DNA of 64,000 nucleotides. It comes from Nocardia brasiliensis. GTDB lineage: Bacteria > Actinomycetota > Actinomycetes > Mycobacteriales > Mycobacteriaceae. The stretch's first letter is position 1; every line of letters starts with the position of its first letter. The stretch lies in NCBI RefSeq assembly GCF_011801125.1, contig NZ_CP046171.1, positions 7,068,001-7,132,000 of the forward strand. Reading direction: 5' to 3'. The notes below the pieces were generated by a model, which was given only the letters and a program-made list of their open reading frames with translations, made no database searches and had not been told where the DNA came from. Positions 2,434 through 46,356 of this stretch are shown in pieces. The position numbers were made by a program, and so were the translations under genes.

Positions 2434-2525
2434 ACCCGAAACGGTAGGCACCCGAGCGTGGCCGCACATCCGGGACGAACCCGGAGATCGCCTCCCCTGC
2501 AAGGATGAGGCCCGCGATCCAGGGC

Positions 2526-2556
2526 TTGCGTTGGAGTGCACTCCAACTTCTACAGT
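2526..2556 (+). promoter_or_regulatory. MerR-type promoter with palindromic operator in a 19-bp spacer
   Basis: The -35 element TTGCGT (2526-2531) and -10 element TACAGT (2551-2556) are 19 bp apart, the over-long spacing typical of MerR-activated promoters. The spacer carries the perfect palindrome TTGGAGTGCACTCCAA (2531-2546). An almost identical arrangement precedes the MerR gene at 44400. It drives the CMD/DJ-1/aldo-keto reductase run; the ATG is 8 nt past the -10 element, so the transcript would be leaderless or nearly so. Confidence 0.75.
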
Positions 2557-2563
2557 CCTTCGC

Positions 2564-3385
2564 ATGACCACAATCCAGCAGCCCACGGGGCACAACGACC
2601 GTTTCGAGCGCGGCATGGCGCTGCTCAAAGAGATCGGTGGGCCGGAAGGTCCCGCGGTACTGGAGAGCCTTGGCGATATCGCACCCGACCTGGGCCGGCT
2701 CACCGTCGAATTCGGCTACGGCGACATCCTCTCCCGGCCCGGCCTGACCCTGCGGCAACGCGAGCTGGCCACGGTCGGCGCGCTGGCCGCACTCGGGCAC
2801 GCCGCGCCGCAGCTGCGCTGGCACATCAACGGTGCGCTCAATGTCGGCTGCACCCGCACCGAGATCGTCGAGGTGCTGATCCACGCCAGCGTGTACGCCG
2901 GTTTCCCGGCCGCGCTGAACGGACTCACCGCCGCGAAGGAGGTCTTCGCCGCCCGCACCGATCTACCCGCTGAGCCGGCCGCGCAACCCGCGCCCACCGG
3001 CGACCGTTTCGAGCGAGGCAGCGCCGCGCTGTCCGAGATCGACGGGCAGGCCGGCGAGCAGGTCGTCGCCGCACTGCAGAACATCGCCCCTGACTTCGCC
3101 CGCCTGCTCGTCGAGTACTCCTTCGGCGACATCTACACCCGGCCCGGACTCGACCTGAAGACCCGGGAGATGGTGACGGTGGCGATGTGCACCGCGCTCG
3201 GCGTCGCCCCGCAGCTCGGGGTGCACATCCACGGCCTGCTCAATGTCGGCGGCAGCGAGCAGGAGGTGATCGAGGTGCTGATCCAGATGGTCGGCTACAC
3301 CGGCTTCCCGGCCGCGCTCAACGCGATCACGGTGGCGCGCACGGTCTTCGCCGAACGGCGGACCCATCGAAATGCCGATGTCTGA
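2564..3385 (+). CDS. Carboxymuconolactone decarboxylase family protein, tandem double domain
   Basis: A 273-residue protein made of two copies of the CMD/AhpD-like all-alpha domain (about residues 10-130 and 145-262). Both copies repeat the motifs DRFERG, the R-P-G-L stretch and GFPAALN. Neither copy has the Cys-x-x-Cys of AhpD peroxidases; conserved His residues (WHINGALNVG, VHIHGLLNVG) remain, as in the gamma-CMD branch. The reaction is unknown; decarboxylation or lactone/aldehyde chemistry is possible. It is the first gene behind the MerR-type promoter at 2526-2556 and is followed by a DJ-1/PfpI protein and an aldo/keto reductase, which points to electrophile or carbonyl detoxification. 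Confidence 0.85.
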   Translation: MTTIQQPTGHNDRFERGMALLKEIGGPEGPAVLESLGDIAPDLGRLTVEFGYGDILSRPGLTLRQRELATVGALAALGHAAPQLRWHINGALNVGCTRTEIVEVLIHASVYAGFPAALNGLTAAKEVFAARTDLPAEPAAQPAPTGDRFERGSAALSEIDGQAGEQVVAALQNIAPDFARLLVEYSFGDIYTRPGLDLKTREMVTVAMCTALGVAPQLGVHIHGLLNVGGSEQEVIEVLIQMVGYTGFPAALNAITVARTVFAERRTHRNADV

Positions 3386-3436
3386 TATCGGTGATCCCAT
3401 TGGCCACTCTTCGTGGTCGAACCTAGGGTCGGAGAC

Positions 3437-4132
3437 ATGGCCAAGATACTTTTCGTTGTGACCGGCGCCGACCATTGGACCCTGGCCGACGGCACGCTGC
3501 ACCCGACCGGATTCTGGGCCGAGGAGTTCGTTGTGCCGTACGAAGCGGCGAAGGCCGCGGGCCACGAGATCGTGGTCGCCACGCCCGGTGGCCTGGTTCC
3601 GCCGGTGGACAAAGCCAGCCTGGCCGCCGAGTACAACGGTGGCCAGGACATCGCCGACCAACGGGCCGAAACGCTGGCCGCCGCGGTCGAACTACAGCGG
3701 CCCGCCGATCTCGCCCAGGTGCGCCTCGCCGACTACGCCGCGGTCTACTACCCGGGCGGCCACGGTCCGATGGAAGACCTCGCGGTGCACCGGGAATCCG
3801 GCGAACTGCTCACCGCCACACTGAAATCCGGCAAACCACTCGCGGTGGTCTGCCACGGTCCGGCCGCCCTGCTCGCCGCGACCGACGCCGAAGGGACCAA
3901 CGCCTTCGCCGGCTACGCCCTCACCGGTTTCACCAATGCCGAGGAACGGCAAGGCGGTCTGGCCGAAAGGGCCAAGTGGCTGCTGCAGGACCGGCTCGTC
4001 GAGCTCGGCGCCGACTTCCAGGAGGGTGCGCCGTGGGCGCCGAAGGTAGTGGTGGACCGCAACCTGATCACCGGCCAGAATCCGGCGTCGTCCGCGCCGG
4101 TGGCCGCGGAACTGCTGCGCAGGCTGGCCTGA
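3437..4132 (+). CDS. DJ-1/PfpI family protein (Hsp31/glyoxalase III-like)
   Basis: A 231-residue class I glutamine amidotransferase-like fold. The nucleophile elbow [11 protein letters not shown] puts the reactive cysteine at Cys139, followed directly by His140, and the [12 protein letters not shown] segment matches the Hsp31/YajL-type branch. Relatives act as glyoxalases, deglycases or holding chaperones. The start is ATG at 3437; a GTG at 3413 in frame is less likely. It lies 51 bp after the CMD gene and 121 bp before the aldo/keto reductase, consistent with one carbonyl-stress operon, though an internal promoter in the 3386-3436 gap is possible. Confidence 0.85.
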
Positions 4133-4253
4133 CCGGGCGCGGGAATCGTCGGCGGGGTCGCGACGTTGCTGCCCAGAGCGACGTCGTCGCACGATATCCA
4201 CAGCAAGGCTCGTCCGTTTTCGCGTAATTCCACTTCGGAAGGAACCGAATCAT

Positions 4254-5126
4254 ATGAGCACCGACCTCCACGCCCGGCCCGCCGCCGCGTCCGGGACCTT
4301 CGCGATCGGCGGGGATCTGCCGGTCCATCGGCTCGGCTTCGGCGCCATGCGGCTGACCGGCCCCGGTGTCTGGGGTGACCCGGAAGATCCCGACGAGGCG
4401 GTGCGGGTGCTGCGCCGAGTGGTCGAGCTGGGCGTGAACTTCATCGACACCGCCGACTCCTACGGCCCCTTCGTCAGCGAGCAGCTCATCCGCAAGGCCC
4501 TGCACCCGTACACCGACGACCTGGTGATCGCCACCAAGGGCGGTTTCACCCGCAGTGGCCCCGGCGATTGGCGAGCGGTCGGCAGGCCCGAATACCTGCG
4601 CCAGCAAACCGAACTCAGTCTGCGCCATCTCGGACTGGAGCGGATCGACCTCTACCAACTGCACCGGATCGATCCGAAGGTGCCGCTGGCCGACCAGATC
4701 GGCGAGCTGACGCTGCTGCAGCAGGAGGGCAAGATCCGCCATATCGGCCTGTCTCAGGTGAGCGTCGAACAGCTGGAGCAGGCCCGCGAACTCGCCACCA
4801 TCGTATCGGTGCAGAACCTCTACAACCTGACCAATCGCACCGACGACGACGTGCTGGACTACGCCGAACGCGAGAACATCGCGTTCATTCCGTGGTATCC
4901 GATCGCCACCGGCAAGCTGGCCGAATCCGGCGGTCCGCTCGACGCCATCGCCGCGGCGCACGACGCGACACCCGCACAGGTGGCGCTGGCCTGGCTGCTG
5001 CGCCGGTCGCCGGTGCTGCTGCCGATCCCGGGCACCGCGAGCGTCGCGCACCTCGAAGAGAACACCGCGGCGGCGCGGATCACGCTGACCGACAAAGAAT
5101 TCGACGATCTCGCCGCAGCTGTCTGA
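4254..5126 (+). CDS. Aldo/keto reductase
   Basis: A 290-residue NADPH-dependent (beta/alpha)8 aldo/keto reductase. The full catalytic tetrad is visible: Asp65 and Tyr70 in FIDTADSYG, Lys95 in VIATKGG and His137 in DLYQLHRID. The GGAAGGAA before the ATG at 4254 fixes the start. Expected role: reduction of aldehydes or ketones to alcohols in the cytosol. It is the last gene of the CMD/DJ-1/AKR run, which fits a pathway for clearing reactive carbonyls. A strong 19-bp inverted repeat follows within 105 bp. Confidence 0.9.
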
Positions 5127-5484
5127 CTACCCAAAGACTGTCCAGTTTACTTTTTCGCGGCTCGGCGATTGCCGAGCACACTGCGGGCATGCCGTATTTC
5201 CCCGCCACGGCCGGGGAAATACGGCATGCCATCCCTCCGAACAATGTCGGTGCACCCGGCACCGAAGGCGCCTACCGGAATCACGCTCGACACGGATGGA
5301 TCAGGCCGTGCCGGGACCGCGCGCAGGATTCCGGAATGCCGGCGCCCTCGTGAGGGTTTGGGCAGAACCCCGGCACCGGGTGCGGATTCAGCGTGCACGT
5401 TGCGATTCGGTGGATAACAGTCCCGAATGCGGTAATTGCGGGTAGTTTCCGTTTGTATCAGCCTGGTGCGAGGAAGCGGGACCT
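5127..5484. other. Intergenic region with two hairpins
   Basis: These 358 bp hold no gene I can support. Just after the aldo/keto reductase stop is a T-rich stretch with CTCGGC-GATT-GCCGAG (5161-5176), then a perfect 19-bp inverted repeat (5186-5230). The rest leads to the XRE/TPR regulator; short reading frames here are created by the palindrome itself and read alike on both strands. Confidence 0.6.
5186..5230. repeat. Perfect 19-bp inverted repeat
   Basis: GGCATGCCGTATTTCCCCG (5186-5204) is repeated exactly inverted at 5212-5230 with a 7-nt loop. The perfect match and lack of a T tract make it more than an ordinary Rho-independent terminator, but termination after the aldo/keto reductase is the simplest reading. 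A regulator site or a repeat-family copy are alternatives. Confidence 0.85.
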
Positions 5485-6831
5485 ATGGTTGAGATCGACT
5501 GGACGGGCGAGGATGTCCGTGCGCTTCGGGCCGCGCTGCGGCGAAGTCGGTACGAATTCGCGCGTCTGGTGGGCGTCACCCCGCGCACCGTTGTCCTCTG
5601 GGAAAACGGCCGAACGACTCGGATGCATGCCGCAAGCCAGCGCCTGCTGGACAAGGTCGTCTCCGATGCCGATCCGGCCGTCGTCGCGCGATTCGAGCGG
5701 ACCGTCACGGCACGTCGAGGCTCCGGCCTCGACCTCGTGACTGCCGACTCGGCGCCCGATCCGCACACCCAGCTCGGTAGGGACATCGGGCTCGACAAGG
5801 AAGTCGAGGATGACGACGTGAGAAGGCGAGAATTACTGGCCTGTATCGGTGTGGGCCTCACCGGCCGGGCCGCCGAGCTGATCGCGAGCGAGCCGGAGAA
5901 GATGCTGGCCACCCTGGACGCCGGGTCGATCAGCGAGCGCCGACTCGGGTTACTCGAGAACTCGGTCGCCGAGCTCGGCAAGCGGGTGGTTCAGGTACCG
6001 CCGCACGAACTGTTGCATCCGACACTGGAGCAGTTCCGCACGGTCCGCGGCGCGCTCGCTCAGCGCCAGGCGACCCACCATCAGGTCCGACTGGTCCGCA
6101 CGGCGGGCAGGCTGGCCAACGTGGTCGGCGAAATCCTGTTCAACGAAGGGCATTTCGGGCAGGCCAGGATGTGGTACGGCACGGCGATCCATGCCGCGCA
6201 GGACATCGGTGATCGTTACTCCGAAGACATCGCACTGGCGGGTCTGGCGTACCTGCCGACCTACAGCGACAAACCGAGGGAAGTCCTGAACCTGCTCGGC
6301 GGGCGGCTGGAGGAGAATCCGGCGCACGGCGCCGCGGCGGGCTGGTTGTGGGGAATGGCGGCCCGCGCGCATGCCAGCCTGGGAAATGCCGATCAGTTCA
6401 CCCGGTGTATCGAGAAATCCGCCCGCGCATTGGAAGATATTGACCAGCAAGAACTTACGGTGGGCATCTTTTCCTATCGGCCCGAAAAACTCGCCTTCTA
6501 CCAGGCGATCGGCAACGCGCGGCTCGGCCGCGCCACCGAAACGGCGAAAGCCGCGGCCCGCGCGCTCACACTCTACGATCCGCGAGAAACAATGGAGCCT
6601 GCGCTCGTTCGCTTCGAGCATGCCACCGCGTTGCTGAGCGCGGGCGAAGTCGACGAAGCGTGTTCCATTGCGACACAAGCGATCACCGGAAACAACACCT
6701 ATATCGGATTGACGGTCACCAAGCGCGCCAAGCAGTTCGACACCGCGCTGTCGGGGTTCCGCGGCCGAGCGGTCACGGGCTGGCGCCAGCATGCCAGGTC
6801 GGTGCTCGAGTCGTCGCGAACCAAGGCCTGA
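5485..6831 (+). CDS. XRE-family regulator with C-terminal TPR-like helical repeats
   Basis: A 448-residue protein. The N-terminal 60 residues form a Cro/C1-type helix-turn-helix (VRALRAALRRSRYEFARLVG then TPRTVVLWENGRT). The rest is a long helical solenoid typical of actinobacterial XRE/TPR regulators. In such proteins the TPR part binds a peptide or partner protein, often encoded by a small neighbour. A 53-residue reading frame lies convergently downstream (6925-7086) and could be that partner, but this is inference. The ATG at 5485 is preceded by an AGGAAGCGGGA stretch. Target genes are not evident. Confidence 0.8.
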   Translation: MVEIDWTGEDVRALRAALRRSRYEFARLVGVTPRTVVLWENGRTTRMHAASQRLLDKVVSDADPAVVARFERTVTARRGSGLDLVTADSAPDPHTQLGRDIGLDKEVEDDDVRRRELLACIGVGLTGRAAELIASEPEKMLATLDAGSISERRLGLLENSVAELGKRVVQVPPHELLHPTLEQFRTVRGALAQRQATHHQVRLVRTAGRLANVVGEILFNEGHFGQARMWYGTAIHAAQDIGDRYSEDIALAGLAYLPTYSDKPREVLNLLGGRLEENPAHGAAAGWLWGMAARAHASLGNADQFTRCIEKSARALEDIDQQELTVGIFSYRPEKLAFYQAIGNARLGRATETAKAAARALTLYDPRETMEPALVRFEHATALLSAGEVDEACSIATQAITGNNTYIGLTVTKRAKQFDTALSGFRGRAVTGWRQHARSVLESSRTKA

Positions 6832-44338: not shown

Positions 44339-44369
44339 TTGCTTGGAGCGCACTCCAGGCGACTAGCGT
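44339..44369 (+). promoter_or_regulatory. MerR-type promoter of the MerR gene
   Basis: TTGCTT (44339-44344) and TAGCGT (44364-44369) are 19 bp apart, with CTTGGAGCGCACTCCAGG between. This copies the operator at 2531-2546 (TTGGAGTGCACTCCAA) with two changes, so one regulator probably acts on both. Confidence 0.7.
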
Positions 44370-44399: not shown

Positions 44400-44855
44400 G
44401 TGAGTGAAACCGCGCGCAACGAGCGAGGCAGCGACCGGGAAACGCCGCGCTATTCGATCGGGGAGGTCTCCGAGCGCTCGGGGCTGACCAGGGACACGTT
44501 GCGCTGGTACGAACGGATCGGGTTGATGGACTACATCGGCCGCGATCGCACCGGCAAGCGGCGCTTCAGCGACCGCGACCTGGAGTGGCTGACCCTGATC
44601 GGCCGGCTGCGCACCACCGGCATGTCGGTGGCCGACATGGTCCGGTACGCGGAACTCGTGCGCGCGGGGGATTCGACGTTCCCCGAGCGACTGGCGATGT
44701 TCCGCAAGACGCGTGCCGAGGTGCTCGCCAAGATCGACGAACTGCGGCAGACCGTGGCCGTGCTCGACTACAAGATCGACATATACGAGGGCAAGGCACA
44801 ACCTGTGCGACCGATCCCGAGCAACGCGCGGAACGGCGAAGGACTCCGGGTATGA
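44400..44855 (+). CDS. MerR-family regulator of the AdhR/NmlR type, without cysteine
   Basis: A 151-residue MerR protein: winged HTH (YSIGEVSERSGLTRDTLRWY ERIGLMDY) and a C-terminal coiled-coil helix (RLAMFRKTRAEVLAKIDEL). The pattern AELVRAGDSTFPERL and LDYKIDIYEGK matches the AdhR/YyaN group, whose members sense aldehydes or nitrosative stress through a cysteine. Here the protein has no cysteine at all. GTG at 44400; an ATG at 44395 is out of frame. It is behind a promoter of its own class, so it is probably autoregulated, and is followed by an ABM monooxygenase. Confidence 0.88.
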   Translation: MSETARNERGSDRETPRYSIGEVSERSGLTRDTLRWYERIGLMDYIGRDRTGKRRFSDRDLEWLTLIGRLRTTGMSVADMVRYAELVRAGDSTFPERLAMFRKTRAEVLAKIDELRQTVAVLDYKIDIYEGKAQPVRPIPSNARNGEGLRV

Positions 44856-44904
44856 CCGGCGACCCGAATGGATAGCAAGCACCACAACAGATCTGGAGTA
44901 CAAC

Positions 44905-45195
44905 GTGGCCAACCTGACGCTCAATGTCCGATTCACCGCCAAGCCGGGCCGGGAGTCCGAGCTGCGCGAAGTGCTGGAGAACTTGGTCGCGCCGACTGTC
45001 GCCGAGCCGGGCTGCGTGCGCTACGAGCTGTACCTGCACCCCACCGATCCGGCCAAAATGGTGCTGCTCGAGGAGTGGATCGACGCCGACGCGCTGGCCG
45101 AGCATTTCGAGACCCCGCACCTGAAGCAGGGCGCGGCCGCGTTGGACGAGATCCTGGTCGAGCCGTTCCAGTTGCGCCGGTTCGTCGAGCTCTGA
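44905..45195 (+). CDS. ABM-family monooxygenase
   Basis: A 96-residue antibiotic biosynthesis monooxygenase-fold protein (ferredoxin-like dimer; NLTLNVRFTAKPGRESELRE, GCVRYELYLHPTDP, VLLEEWIDADALAEH). YgiN-like relatives oxidise quinols or aromatic compounds without cofactors. GTG at 44905 behind GGAG. 49 bp after the MerR gene and likely in its operon. Confidence 0.85.
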   Translation: MANLTLNVRFTAKPGRESELREVLENLVAPTVAEPGCVRYELYLHPTDPAKMVLLEEWIDADALAEHFETPHLKQGAAALDEILVEPFQLRRFVEL

Positions 45196-45387: not shown

Positions 45388-45561
45388 GGCATTGCTCCTT
45401 CGACGAACTCTCCCATTCTCGGAGCGCGCCACGGGTCGGCGCGAGGTCTGGACAACGATCTCTACGAGTTCTGAACACCGCCGTAACAAGACGTGGACTT
45501 CGGTCCGTTTATGCGCCGCCCCGCGGCGGGCCCGATCCAGGAGGGGCTAGCATCCATCAAG

Positions 45562-46356
45562 GTGAAGCCCGATCAATCGCATGACCGCGTCTGGATCGAC
45601 AAGCAGACGCCCGGTGTCTATCGCGCACTCGTCAAGGTCGCCAACGAAGTACGGGCCGCGGCGACGGCGGTGGGCCTGGACCGCAAACTCGTCGAACTGA
45701 TCAACATGCGGGTTTCGCAGATCAACGGCTGTGCGGTCTGCCTGGACGTGCATGGGCGTGCCGCGCTCGCCGCGGGGAATACCGCGCAGGAACTCGCGGT
45801 TCTGCCGGCGTGGGACCGCACGGATCTGTACTCGCCGCTCGAGCGGGCCGTCCTGCGACTGGCCGAGGTCACCACGACCCTGCCGGACGAGGACACGCTG
45901 GAGCGGGCCTACACGGCGGCTCGCGAGGTCCTGACCGACGATCAGCTGTCCACCGTCATCTGGGTGGCCACGACGATCGGCGCGTTCAATCGCGTGTCGA
46001 TCCTGAGCAAACACCCGGTACGCACACCGAAGGAGCACTCGACCATGACCGCAGCCACACCCGACGCCAAGGTCGTCCGTAACGACGAGAAGCACCGCTA
46101 CGAGGTGACCTACGGCGGCGAGCTCGCCGGGTTCGCCGAGTACGAGGAGCGCGGCACGGAGACCGTGTTCACCCATACCGAGATCGACGGCGCGTTCTCC
46201 GGTAAGGGGCTGGGCAGCATTCTGGCCAAGCAGGCCATCGAGGACGCCGTCGAGCGCAAGCGCGAGATCCGGCCGCTGTGCCCGTTCATCAAGGCCTACC
46301 TGGACAAGCACCCGCAGTACGACGCGCATGTCATCGGCAAGGGGATCACCCGGTGA
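45562..46356 (+). CDS. AhpD-like carboxymuconolactone decarboxylase fused to a GNAT acetyltransferase
   Basis: A two-domain protein. Residues 1-155 are a CMD/AhpD domain with the peroxidase motif GCAVCLDVH (Cys-x-x-Cys-x3-His). From MTAATPDAKVVRNDEKHRYE on it is a small YjdJ-type GNAT domain (GKGLGSILAKQAIEDA, KAYLDKHPQYD). GTG at 45562 is favoured because family members start just before VWIDKQTPGVY; the frame is open back to a GTG at 45493. An AAGGAG before the internal ATG at 46045 suggests that the GNAT half may also be made alone, so the fusion may be recent. Confidence 0.8.
   Translation: MKPDQSHDRVWIDKQTPGVYRALVKVANEVRAAATAVGLDRKLVELINMRVSQINGCAVCLDVHGRAALAAGNTAQELAVLPAWDRTDLYSPLERAVLRLAEVTTTLPDEDTLERAYTAAREVLTDDQLSTVIWVATTIGAFNRVSILSKHPVRTPKEHSTMTAATPDAKVVRNDEKHRYEVTYGGELAGFAEYEERGTETVFTHTEIDGAFSGKGLGSILAKQAIEDAVERKREIRPLCPFIKAYLDKHPQYDAHVIGKGITR

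Follow-up and report, generated by a model that had tools for sequence, protein, structure and literature searches.

A cysteine-free variant of the NmlR/AdhR kind of MerR regulator and its probable 19-bp-spacer promoters in Nocardia

The closest described counterparts of the regulator considered here are NmlR and the AdhR protein. An earlier note on the present DNA described the AdhR regulon as containing a carboxymuconolactone decarboxylase (CMD) family gene and a DJ-1/PfpI gene; the latter is presumably yraA. According to the review PMC4776306, AdhR controls the CMD gene yraC and yraA besides adhA, and section 14 of that review describes a cysteine, Cys54 (Cys52 in AdhR), as absolutely conserved in the NmlR clade, mutants of which fail to respond. 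The DNA analysed here, a 64-kb stretch that we call the window, comes from a single Nocardia contig of 7.95 Mb and encodes a MerR-family protein of 151 aa (44400..44855, plus strand) for which sites, promoter geometry, conservation, co-occurrence of site and regulator and the enzyme classes of the targets were computed directly.

Two promoters of the MerR type lie on the plus strand of the window. Promoter 1 (2526..2556) has the -35 box TTGCGT (2526-2531), a 19-bp spacer and the -10 box TACAGT (2551-2556), with TTGGAGTGCACTCCAA forming a perfect dyad at 2531-2546 that extends to 18 bp as GTTGGAGTGCACTCCAAC at 2530-2547; promoter 2 (44339..44369), which is the regulator's own, has TTGCTT (44339-44344), again a 19-bp spacer, and TAGCGT (44364-44369), with the dyad TTGGAGCGCACTCCAG at 44343-44358. 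An operator dyad inside a 19–20-bp promoter spacer is a trait of the MerR family, and when coordinates and spacers were recomputed the earlier observation that both dyads sit between boxes exactly 19 bp apart was confirmed. No other TTGN3-N19-TAN3T arrangement in the window has a dyad that pairs at 7 or more of 9 positions; from base composition, the layout around GGAGNNNNCTCC is expected 0.0004 times per 64 kb and 0.045 times per genome, and was found two and three times, respectively. The dyad alone at up to three mismatches is weak evidence (four matches in the window versus 0.96 expected, a number that 4 of 100 shuffles reach), and at up to two mismatches it is at background over the whole genome (14 versus 13 for the reversed control); as these loose searches returned only background, promoter geometry was used instead.

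A search of the whole genome for the motif with its 19-bp spacer had been proposed in the earlier note; run for promoter geometry plus the dyad, with up to one mismatch allowed, it proved productive. Besides the full matches at 7112339 (MerR) and 7070526 (CMD) there is a third, on the minus strand (G000:C1:1785457-1785487; boxes TTGACT and TAGCGT around a 19-bp spacer that holds the dyad), and the single one-mismatch match is unlike these three. The -10 box of the third promoter ends 37 nt before a gene whose product, an LLM oxidoreductase of 291 aa, scores above the cut-off of TIGR03560, the model of an F420-dependent family (294.9 versus 231.4 bits). As a separate observation, a divergent gene beside it (L015 5588-6916), labelled MFS-like transporter by eye, is kept as a neighbour in three relatives (L207, L212, and L215).

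Promoter 1 precedes a probable operon of three plus-strand genes, encoding a double-domain CMD family protein of 273 aa (2564..3385; two stretches matching Pfam PF02627), a DJ-1/PfpI protein (3437..4132; the best NCBIfam match being glyoxalase III HchA, whose cut-off of 365 bits is not reached by the score of 92) and an aldo/keto reductase (AKR) that scores above the cut-off of the PRK10376 subfamily (4254..5126). The CMD mRNA is probably leaderless, because the ATG lies 7 nt past the -10 box. The order CMD-DJ-1-AKR is kept in five relatives (L193, L209, L211, L218, and L239), and 33 of 148 Nocardia genomes have a CMD homolog at 1e-60. Among 30 CMD loci examined, a full promoter with the ATG 6–7 nt after the -10 box stands before the 20 best-scoring (64–100% identity); for the other 10 (57–64% identity) we found a promoter in one, farther upstream. 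Scanning 2480-5500 for consensus promoters and terminators yielded neither a promoter nor any terminator on the plus strand, a result that is neutral with regard to the operon. On the other side of promoter 1 a divergent gene of the Beta-lactamase family (1303-2433; Pfam, serine hydrolase fold) is likewise a neighbour in five relatives, with 63–81% identity.

The second promoter had been proposed to drive the MerR gene together with a gene for an antibiotic biosynthesis monooxygenase-like (ABM) protein (Pfam) of 96 aa, downstream on the plus strand (44905..45195). The own promoter of the MerR gene stood up well; the ABM gene did not as an original partner, and is a secondary neighbour. Between the two, an ATG overlapping the MerR stop codon opens a remnant start of an AKR gene (44852..44875, plus strand) that meets a stop codon after 7 codons, and the N. 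brasiliensis locus L072 has the order MerR-AKR-ABM with a longer AKR gene in place of this remnant. Among the best 80 MerR loci of those listed, which include strains of the same species, 48 have an AKR gene after MerR (24 of 47 Nocardia-type and 24 of 33 Streptomyces-type loci), whereas ABM lies within 400 bases of MerR in 5 of the 47 Nocardia-type and 0 of the 33 Streptomyces-type loci; we dropped ABM as the ancestral partner on these counts, and ABM adjoins MerR here because the AKR gene was deleted. We also noted a gene for a fusion of CMD and GNAT acetyltransferase domains at 45493-46356; many Nocardia loci have relatives of this fusion close to their MerR gene.

Elsewhere in the genus the same promoter stands before scattered single enzymes that vary between species. 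From the sites listed away from the MerR gene we fetched 75 (one at a contig end was left out, by hand count), and 72 of these are 19-bp promoters, the exceptions being L182, L219, and L233; with the LLM promoter of the present genome this gives 73 target promoters. They precede genes for three types of LLM protein (14, 16, and 3), for SDRs (16, 1, and 1), AKRs (8, 5, 1, and 2) and CMD proteins (5), with one target, L214, unclassified; for the ten types other than CMD, a single protein per type was checked against Pfam, and LLM oxidoreductases and SDRs were the commonest targets seen. In 34 of the 72 classified targets the start codon lies no more than 9 nt after the -10 box, which suggests leaderless mRNAs. 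The description of the two window promoters as identical holds for their 19-bp spacers but fails for the register of the dyad, as GGAG begins 7 bases into promoter 1 and 6 into promoter 2. This difference recurs: GGAG starts at base 6 in 69 of 69 own-promoter matches among the best 80 loci listed and at base 7 in 57 of the 73 target promoters, the other 16, at base 6, being SDR1 promoters by inspection, and the promoters of Neisseria, Priestia and Monoglobus have the dyad register at base 7. On the helix, a shift of one base means that the dyad faces about 36 degrees away from its former orientation to the boxes, and we infer that it may set the response of the own promoter apart from that of the targets.

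Outside Nocardia the picture is narrower. The site is present in 16 of 20 Streptomyces-type genomes, where 23 of 25 rows (palindromes being counted twice) are the regulator's own promoter and 2 stand before AKRs; the dispersed regulon therefore looks like a Nocardia expansion. A family-wide draw found the exact site in 24 of 201 genomes, 17 of them outside Nocardia (hand count). Nineteen loci fetched from other genera included 5 sites outside any such promoter, 7 that belong to a MerR gene as its own promoter (the product being 42–46% identical to ours in six cases and 73% in one) and 1 promoter before an LLM gene, the rest standing before more distant MerR genes or being unclassified. In other genera of the family, distant MerR genes (L338-L350) have the same dyad in own promoters that are apparently leaderless; those read encode Arg or Lys at the sensor position discussed below.

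We consider it probable that the MerR protein encoded at 44400-44855, of the NmlR/AdhR type, runs its own gene, the CMD operon and the LLM gene through CTTGGAGYGCACTCCAAG. By this account a dimer acting as activator and repressor would bind CTTGGAGYGCACTCCAAG in the over-long 19-bp promoters of its own gene (44.3 kb), of the CMD-DJ-1-AKR operon (2.5 kb) and of the distant F420-dependent LLM oxidoreductase, and would activate them by the usual MerR mechanism, an untwisting of the spacer. The trigger would be an electrophile such as a reactive carbonyl or a quinone, which the reductases remove. The enzymes (reductases, DJ-1, CMD, and ABM) fit such removal, and they fit catabolism equally. A possible, though clearly less probable, reading is that an aromatic or terpenoid substrate or metabolite is sensed, and that LLM, SDR, AKR, CMD and ABM enzymes break it down or tailor it. 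Catabolic and tailoring pathways often employ members of the CMD, LLM and ABM families, the LLM protein belongs to the F420-dependent family TIGR03560, and targets that are scattered single enzymes differing between species suit such a role; however, neither a transporter nor a ring-cleavage gene was found as the first gene under the 72 classified promoters, and DJ-1 and AKR point to carbonyls.

The electrophile reading that we prefer has to accommodate the composition of the regulator itself. The MerR protein matches Pfam PF13411, PF00376 and PF09278, and it has the build of the family, an N-terminal winged helix-turn-helix and a long dimerisation helix (helices at 58-73, 77-89, and 91-130 in a single-chain model, pLDDT 81.8), with no C-terminal effector domain. 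Its nearest named relatives, among the matches listed, are of N. brasiliensis and N. tenerifensis (88% identity), and in at least 120 rows the source names say little, most giving just 'MerR family transcriptional regulator' and some rows being unnamed or incomplete; a literature search for this regulator or its operator, with subscription journals mostly outside its coverage, returned nothing that we recognised. HiNmlR is the nearest solved relative by sequence (1.7e-26) and also the top Foldseek match, with modest TM-scores (0.46–0.55). These matches, the match to the NCBIfam NmlR model NF041849, the CMD and DJ-1 genes of the regulon, like yraC and yraA in that of AdhR (PMC4776306), and the fit of the CMD-DJ-1-AKR set to aldehyde detoxification could indicate a true AdhR/NmlR ortholog with thiol-based sensing of formaldehyde or methylglyoxal, which we nevertheless regard as unlikely. 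The protein scores about 103.5–103.7 bits against NF041849, below the cut-off of 175, which is a strict one since the B. subtilis control genome likewise stays under it. The column of the sensor cysteine, Cys54/Cys52, which the NmlR clade conserves absolutely in the cited section, holds Arg69 here, and there are 0 cysteines in the 151 aa.

Across the best 80 loci listed this column reads R in 28, K in 41, H in 1 and C in 10, so R, K or H in 70, and in 43 of the 80 the stretch from the tblastn start to the stop codon encodes no cysteine at all. All 10 loci with Cys are from Nocardia (L102, L103, L105-L107, L109, L111, and L113-L115). In a tree of 56 rows, whose deep branches are long and uncertain, neither the Cys nor the Arg/Lys label forms one clade; the Nocardia-Streptomyces set has support 98/93, and the two Cys rows placed in it (L102 and L111) nest inside the Arg/Lys rows, as if cysteine at this position had been regained in Nocardia. 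Relatives with the cysteine are also found in other parts of the phylum, two families of the same class or order among them. Because the window protein has no cysteine, direct thiol chemistry at Cys54/Cys52 is impossible for it, and direct thiol sensing of the AdhR kind is excluded on its predicted sequence. An answer to aldehydes by an AdhR-like mechanism is thus not supported as worded, given also that no adhA/adhC-type gene was found among the first genes, and support for the idea of an AdhR-like carbonyl sensor is only partial. The routes left to a trigger would be the non-covalent binding of a small ligand, or chemistry at the Arg/Lys standing in place of the cysteine; that a whole actinobacterial NmlR-like branch senses carbonyls or quinones thiol-free by means of this Arg/Lys itself, for example through dicarbonyl adducts, and commands the dispersed F420-dependent Nocardia regulon is a more adventurous proposal, to which we give little credence.

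The link between regulator and sites is well supported by the comparison of genomes. Among the best 80 loci listed, the MerR gene is preceded by its own promoter in all but one of 47 Nocardia-type loci (46) and in 23 of the 33 of Streptomyces type; the only Nocardia-type miss, L078, has just 40 bases of upstream DNA, and 10 of the 33 Streptomyces-type loci gave no match. The exact 15-mer site is present in 116 of 148 Nocardia genomes, compared with 1 of 148 for the reversed control. A strong ortholog of the regulator is found in 136 of the 148 (six have none at 1e-20, and in six the only homolog has an E-value of 1e-25 to 1e-32), and the site occurs in 115 of these 136 versus 1 of the other 12 (Fisher p ~1e-7, uncorrected for relatedness); 21 of the 136 lack the exact 15-mer, in a search for exact matches, and the lone site in a genome without a strong ortholog (G054, L233) has no promoter around it. 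The genome of the window contains no other close MerR protein, the next being 33% identical and the next NmlR-model score 43.9 versus 103.7 bits. The possibility of another MerR gene with a better-matching recognition helix had been singled out for checking; the DTLRWYER helix was absent from all 14 paralog helices read, including that of the nearest, L017, among 25 further MerR matches, the other 11 being weaker matches whose helix was not readable or not judged, and the sole dyad promoter seen for a paralog, L018, has a 20-bp spacer and a different sequence. With the own promoter conserved, regulator and site co-occurring and no rival found in the genome, the claim that one MerR regulator serves both loci is supported. 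That some other MerR protein controls the 2.5-kb site, the likeness of the sites being coincidence or shared family specificity, is very improbable on this co-occurrence and the paralog comparison, even though MerR proteins 42–46% identical in other genera use the same dyad and the specificity is therefore not unique to this ortholog.

A regulator so far named only generically among those at least 120 rows thereby acquires a probable operator and a list of definite candidate targets. To our knowledge the physiological triggers of F420-dependent LLM oxidoreductases are mostly unknown, and the present assignment ties such enzymes to a switch that can be tested. The operator build and the target types of NmlR/AdhR persist where the sensing cysteine is missing, and thiol-free sensing therefore becomes a direct question.

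Set against the known systems, the window protein is closest to NmlR by sequence and fold, and the NmlR proteins of Haemophilus and Neisseria (PDB 5d8c, 5d90, and 5e01, by their titles) are likewise short MerR proteins without a sensor domain. The Neisseria gene has beside it a 19-bp promoter with the central dyad TTAGAGTGAACTCTAA (L356), like those of the window; NmlR differs in having Cys54 where the window protein has Arg69, and its operator is less G/C-rich than ours. NmlR of H. influenzae controls adhC/estD, according to PMC9909328, whereas no adhA/adhC-type or class III alcohol dehydrogenase was found among the 72 classified first genes or behind the three promoters of this genome, for sites near the exact motif. 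In Bacillus subtilis, AdhR (YraB) has a CMD gene (yraC) in its regulon, as the window protein has, along with yraA; AdhR, however, needs Cys52 and controls adhA (PMC4776306), and in place of adhA the genes found here are those of LLM, SDR and AKR proteins. The NmlR-like MerR genes on plasmids of the Firmicutes Priestia and Monoglobus (L357 and L361) share the promoter layout, with an SDR or iron alcohol dehydrogenase gene as the divergent neighbour, and differ from the window protein and its operator in a Cys at the sensor position and an A/T-richer dyad. From the Neisseria, Priestia and Monoglobus loci, three in all, we drew the operator pattern TTRGAGTNNACTCYAA in a 19-bp spacer with GGAG/AGAG at base 7, which promoter 1 and 57 of the 73 target promoters share. 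As the sensor cysteine, a score above the NF041849 cut-off and control of a class III alcohol dehydrogenase, by which membership would be recognised, are lacking, we file the window regulator as a variant of the NmlR/AdhR kind rather than a member, one that resembles that kind on the DNA.
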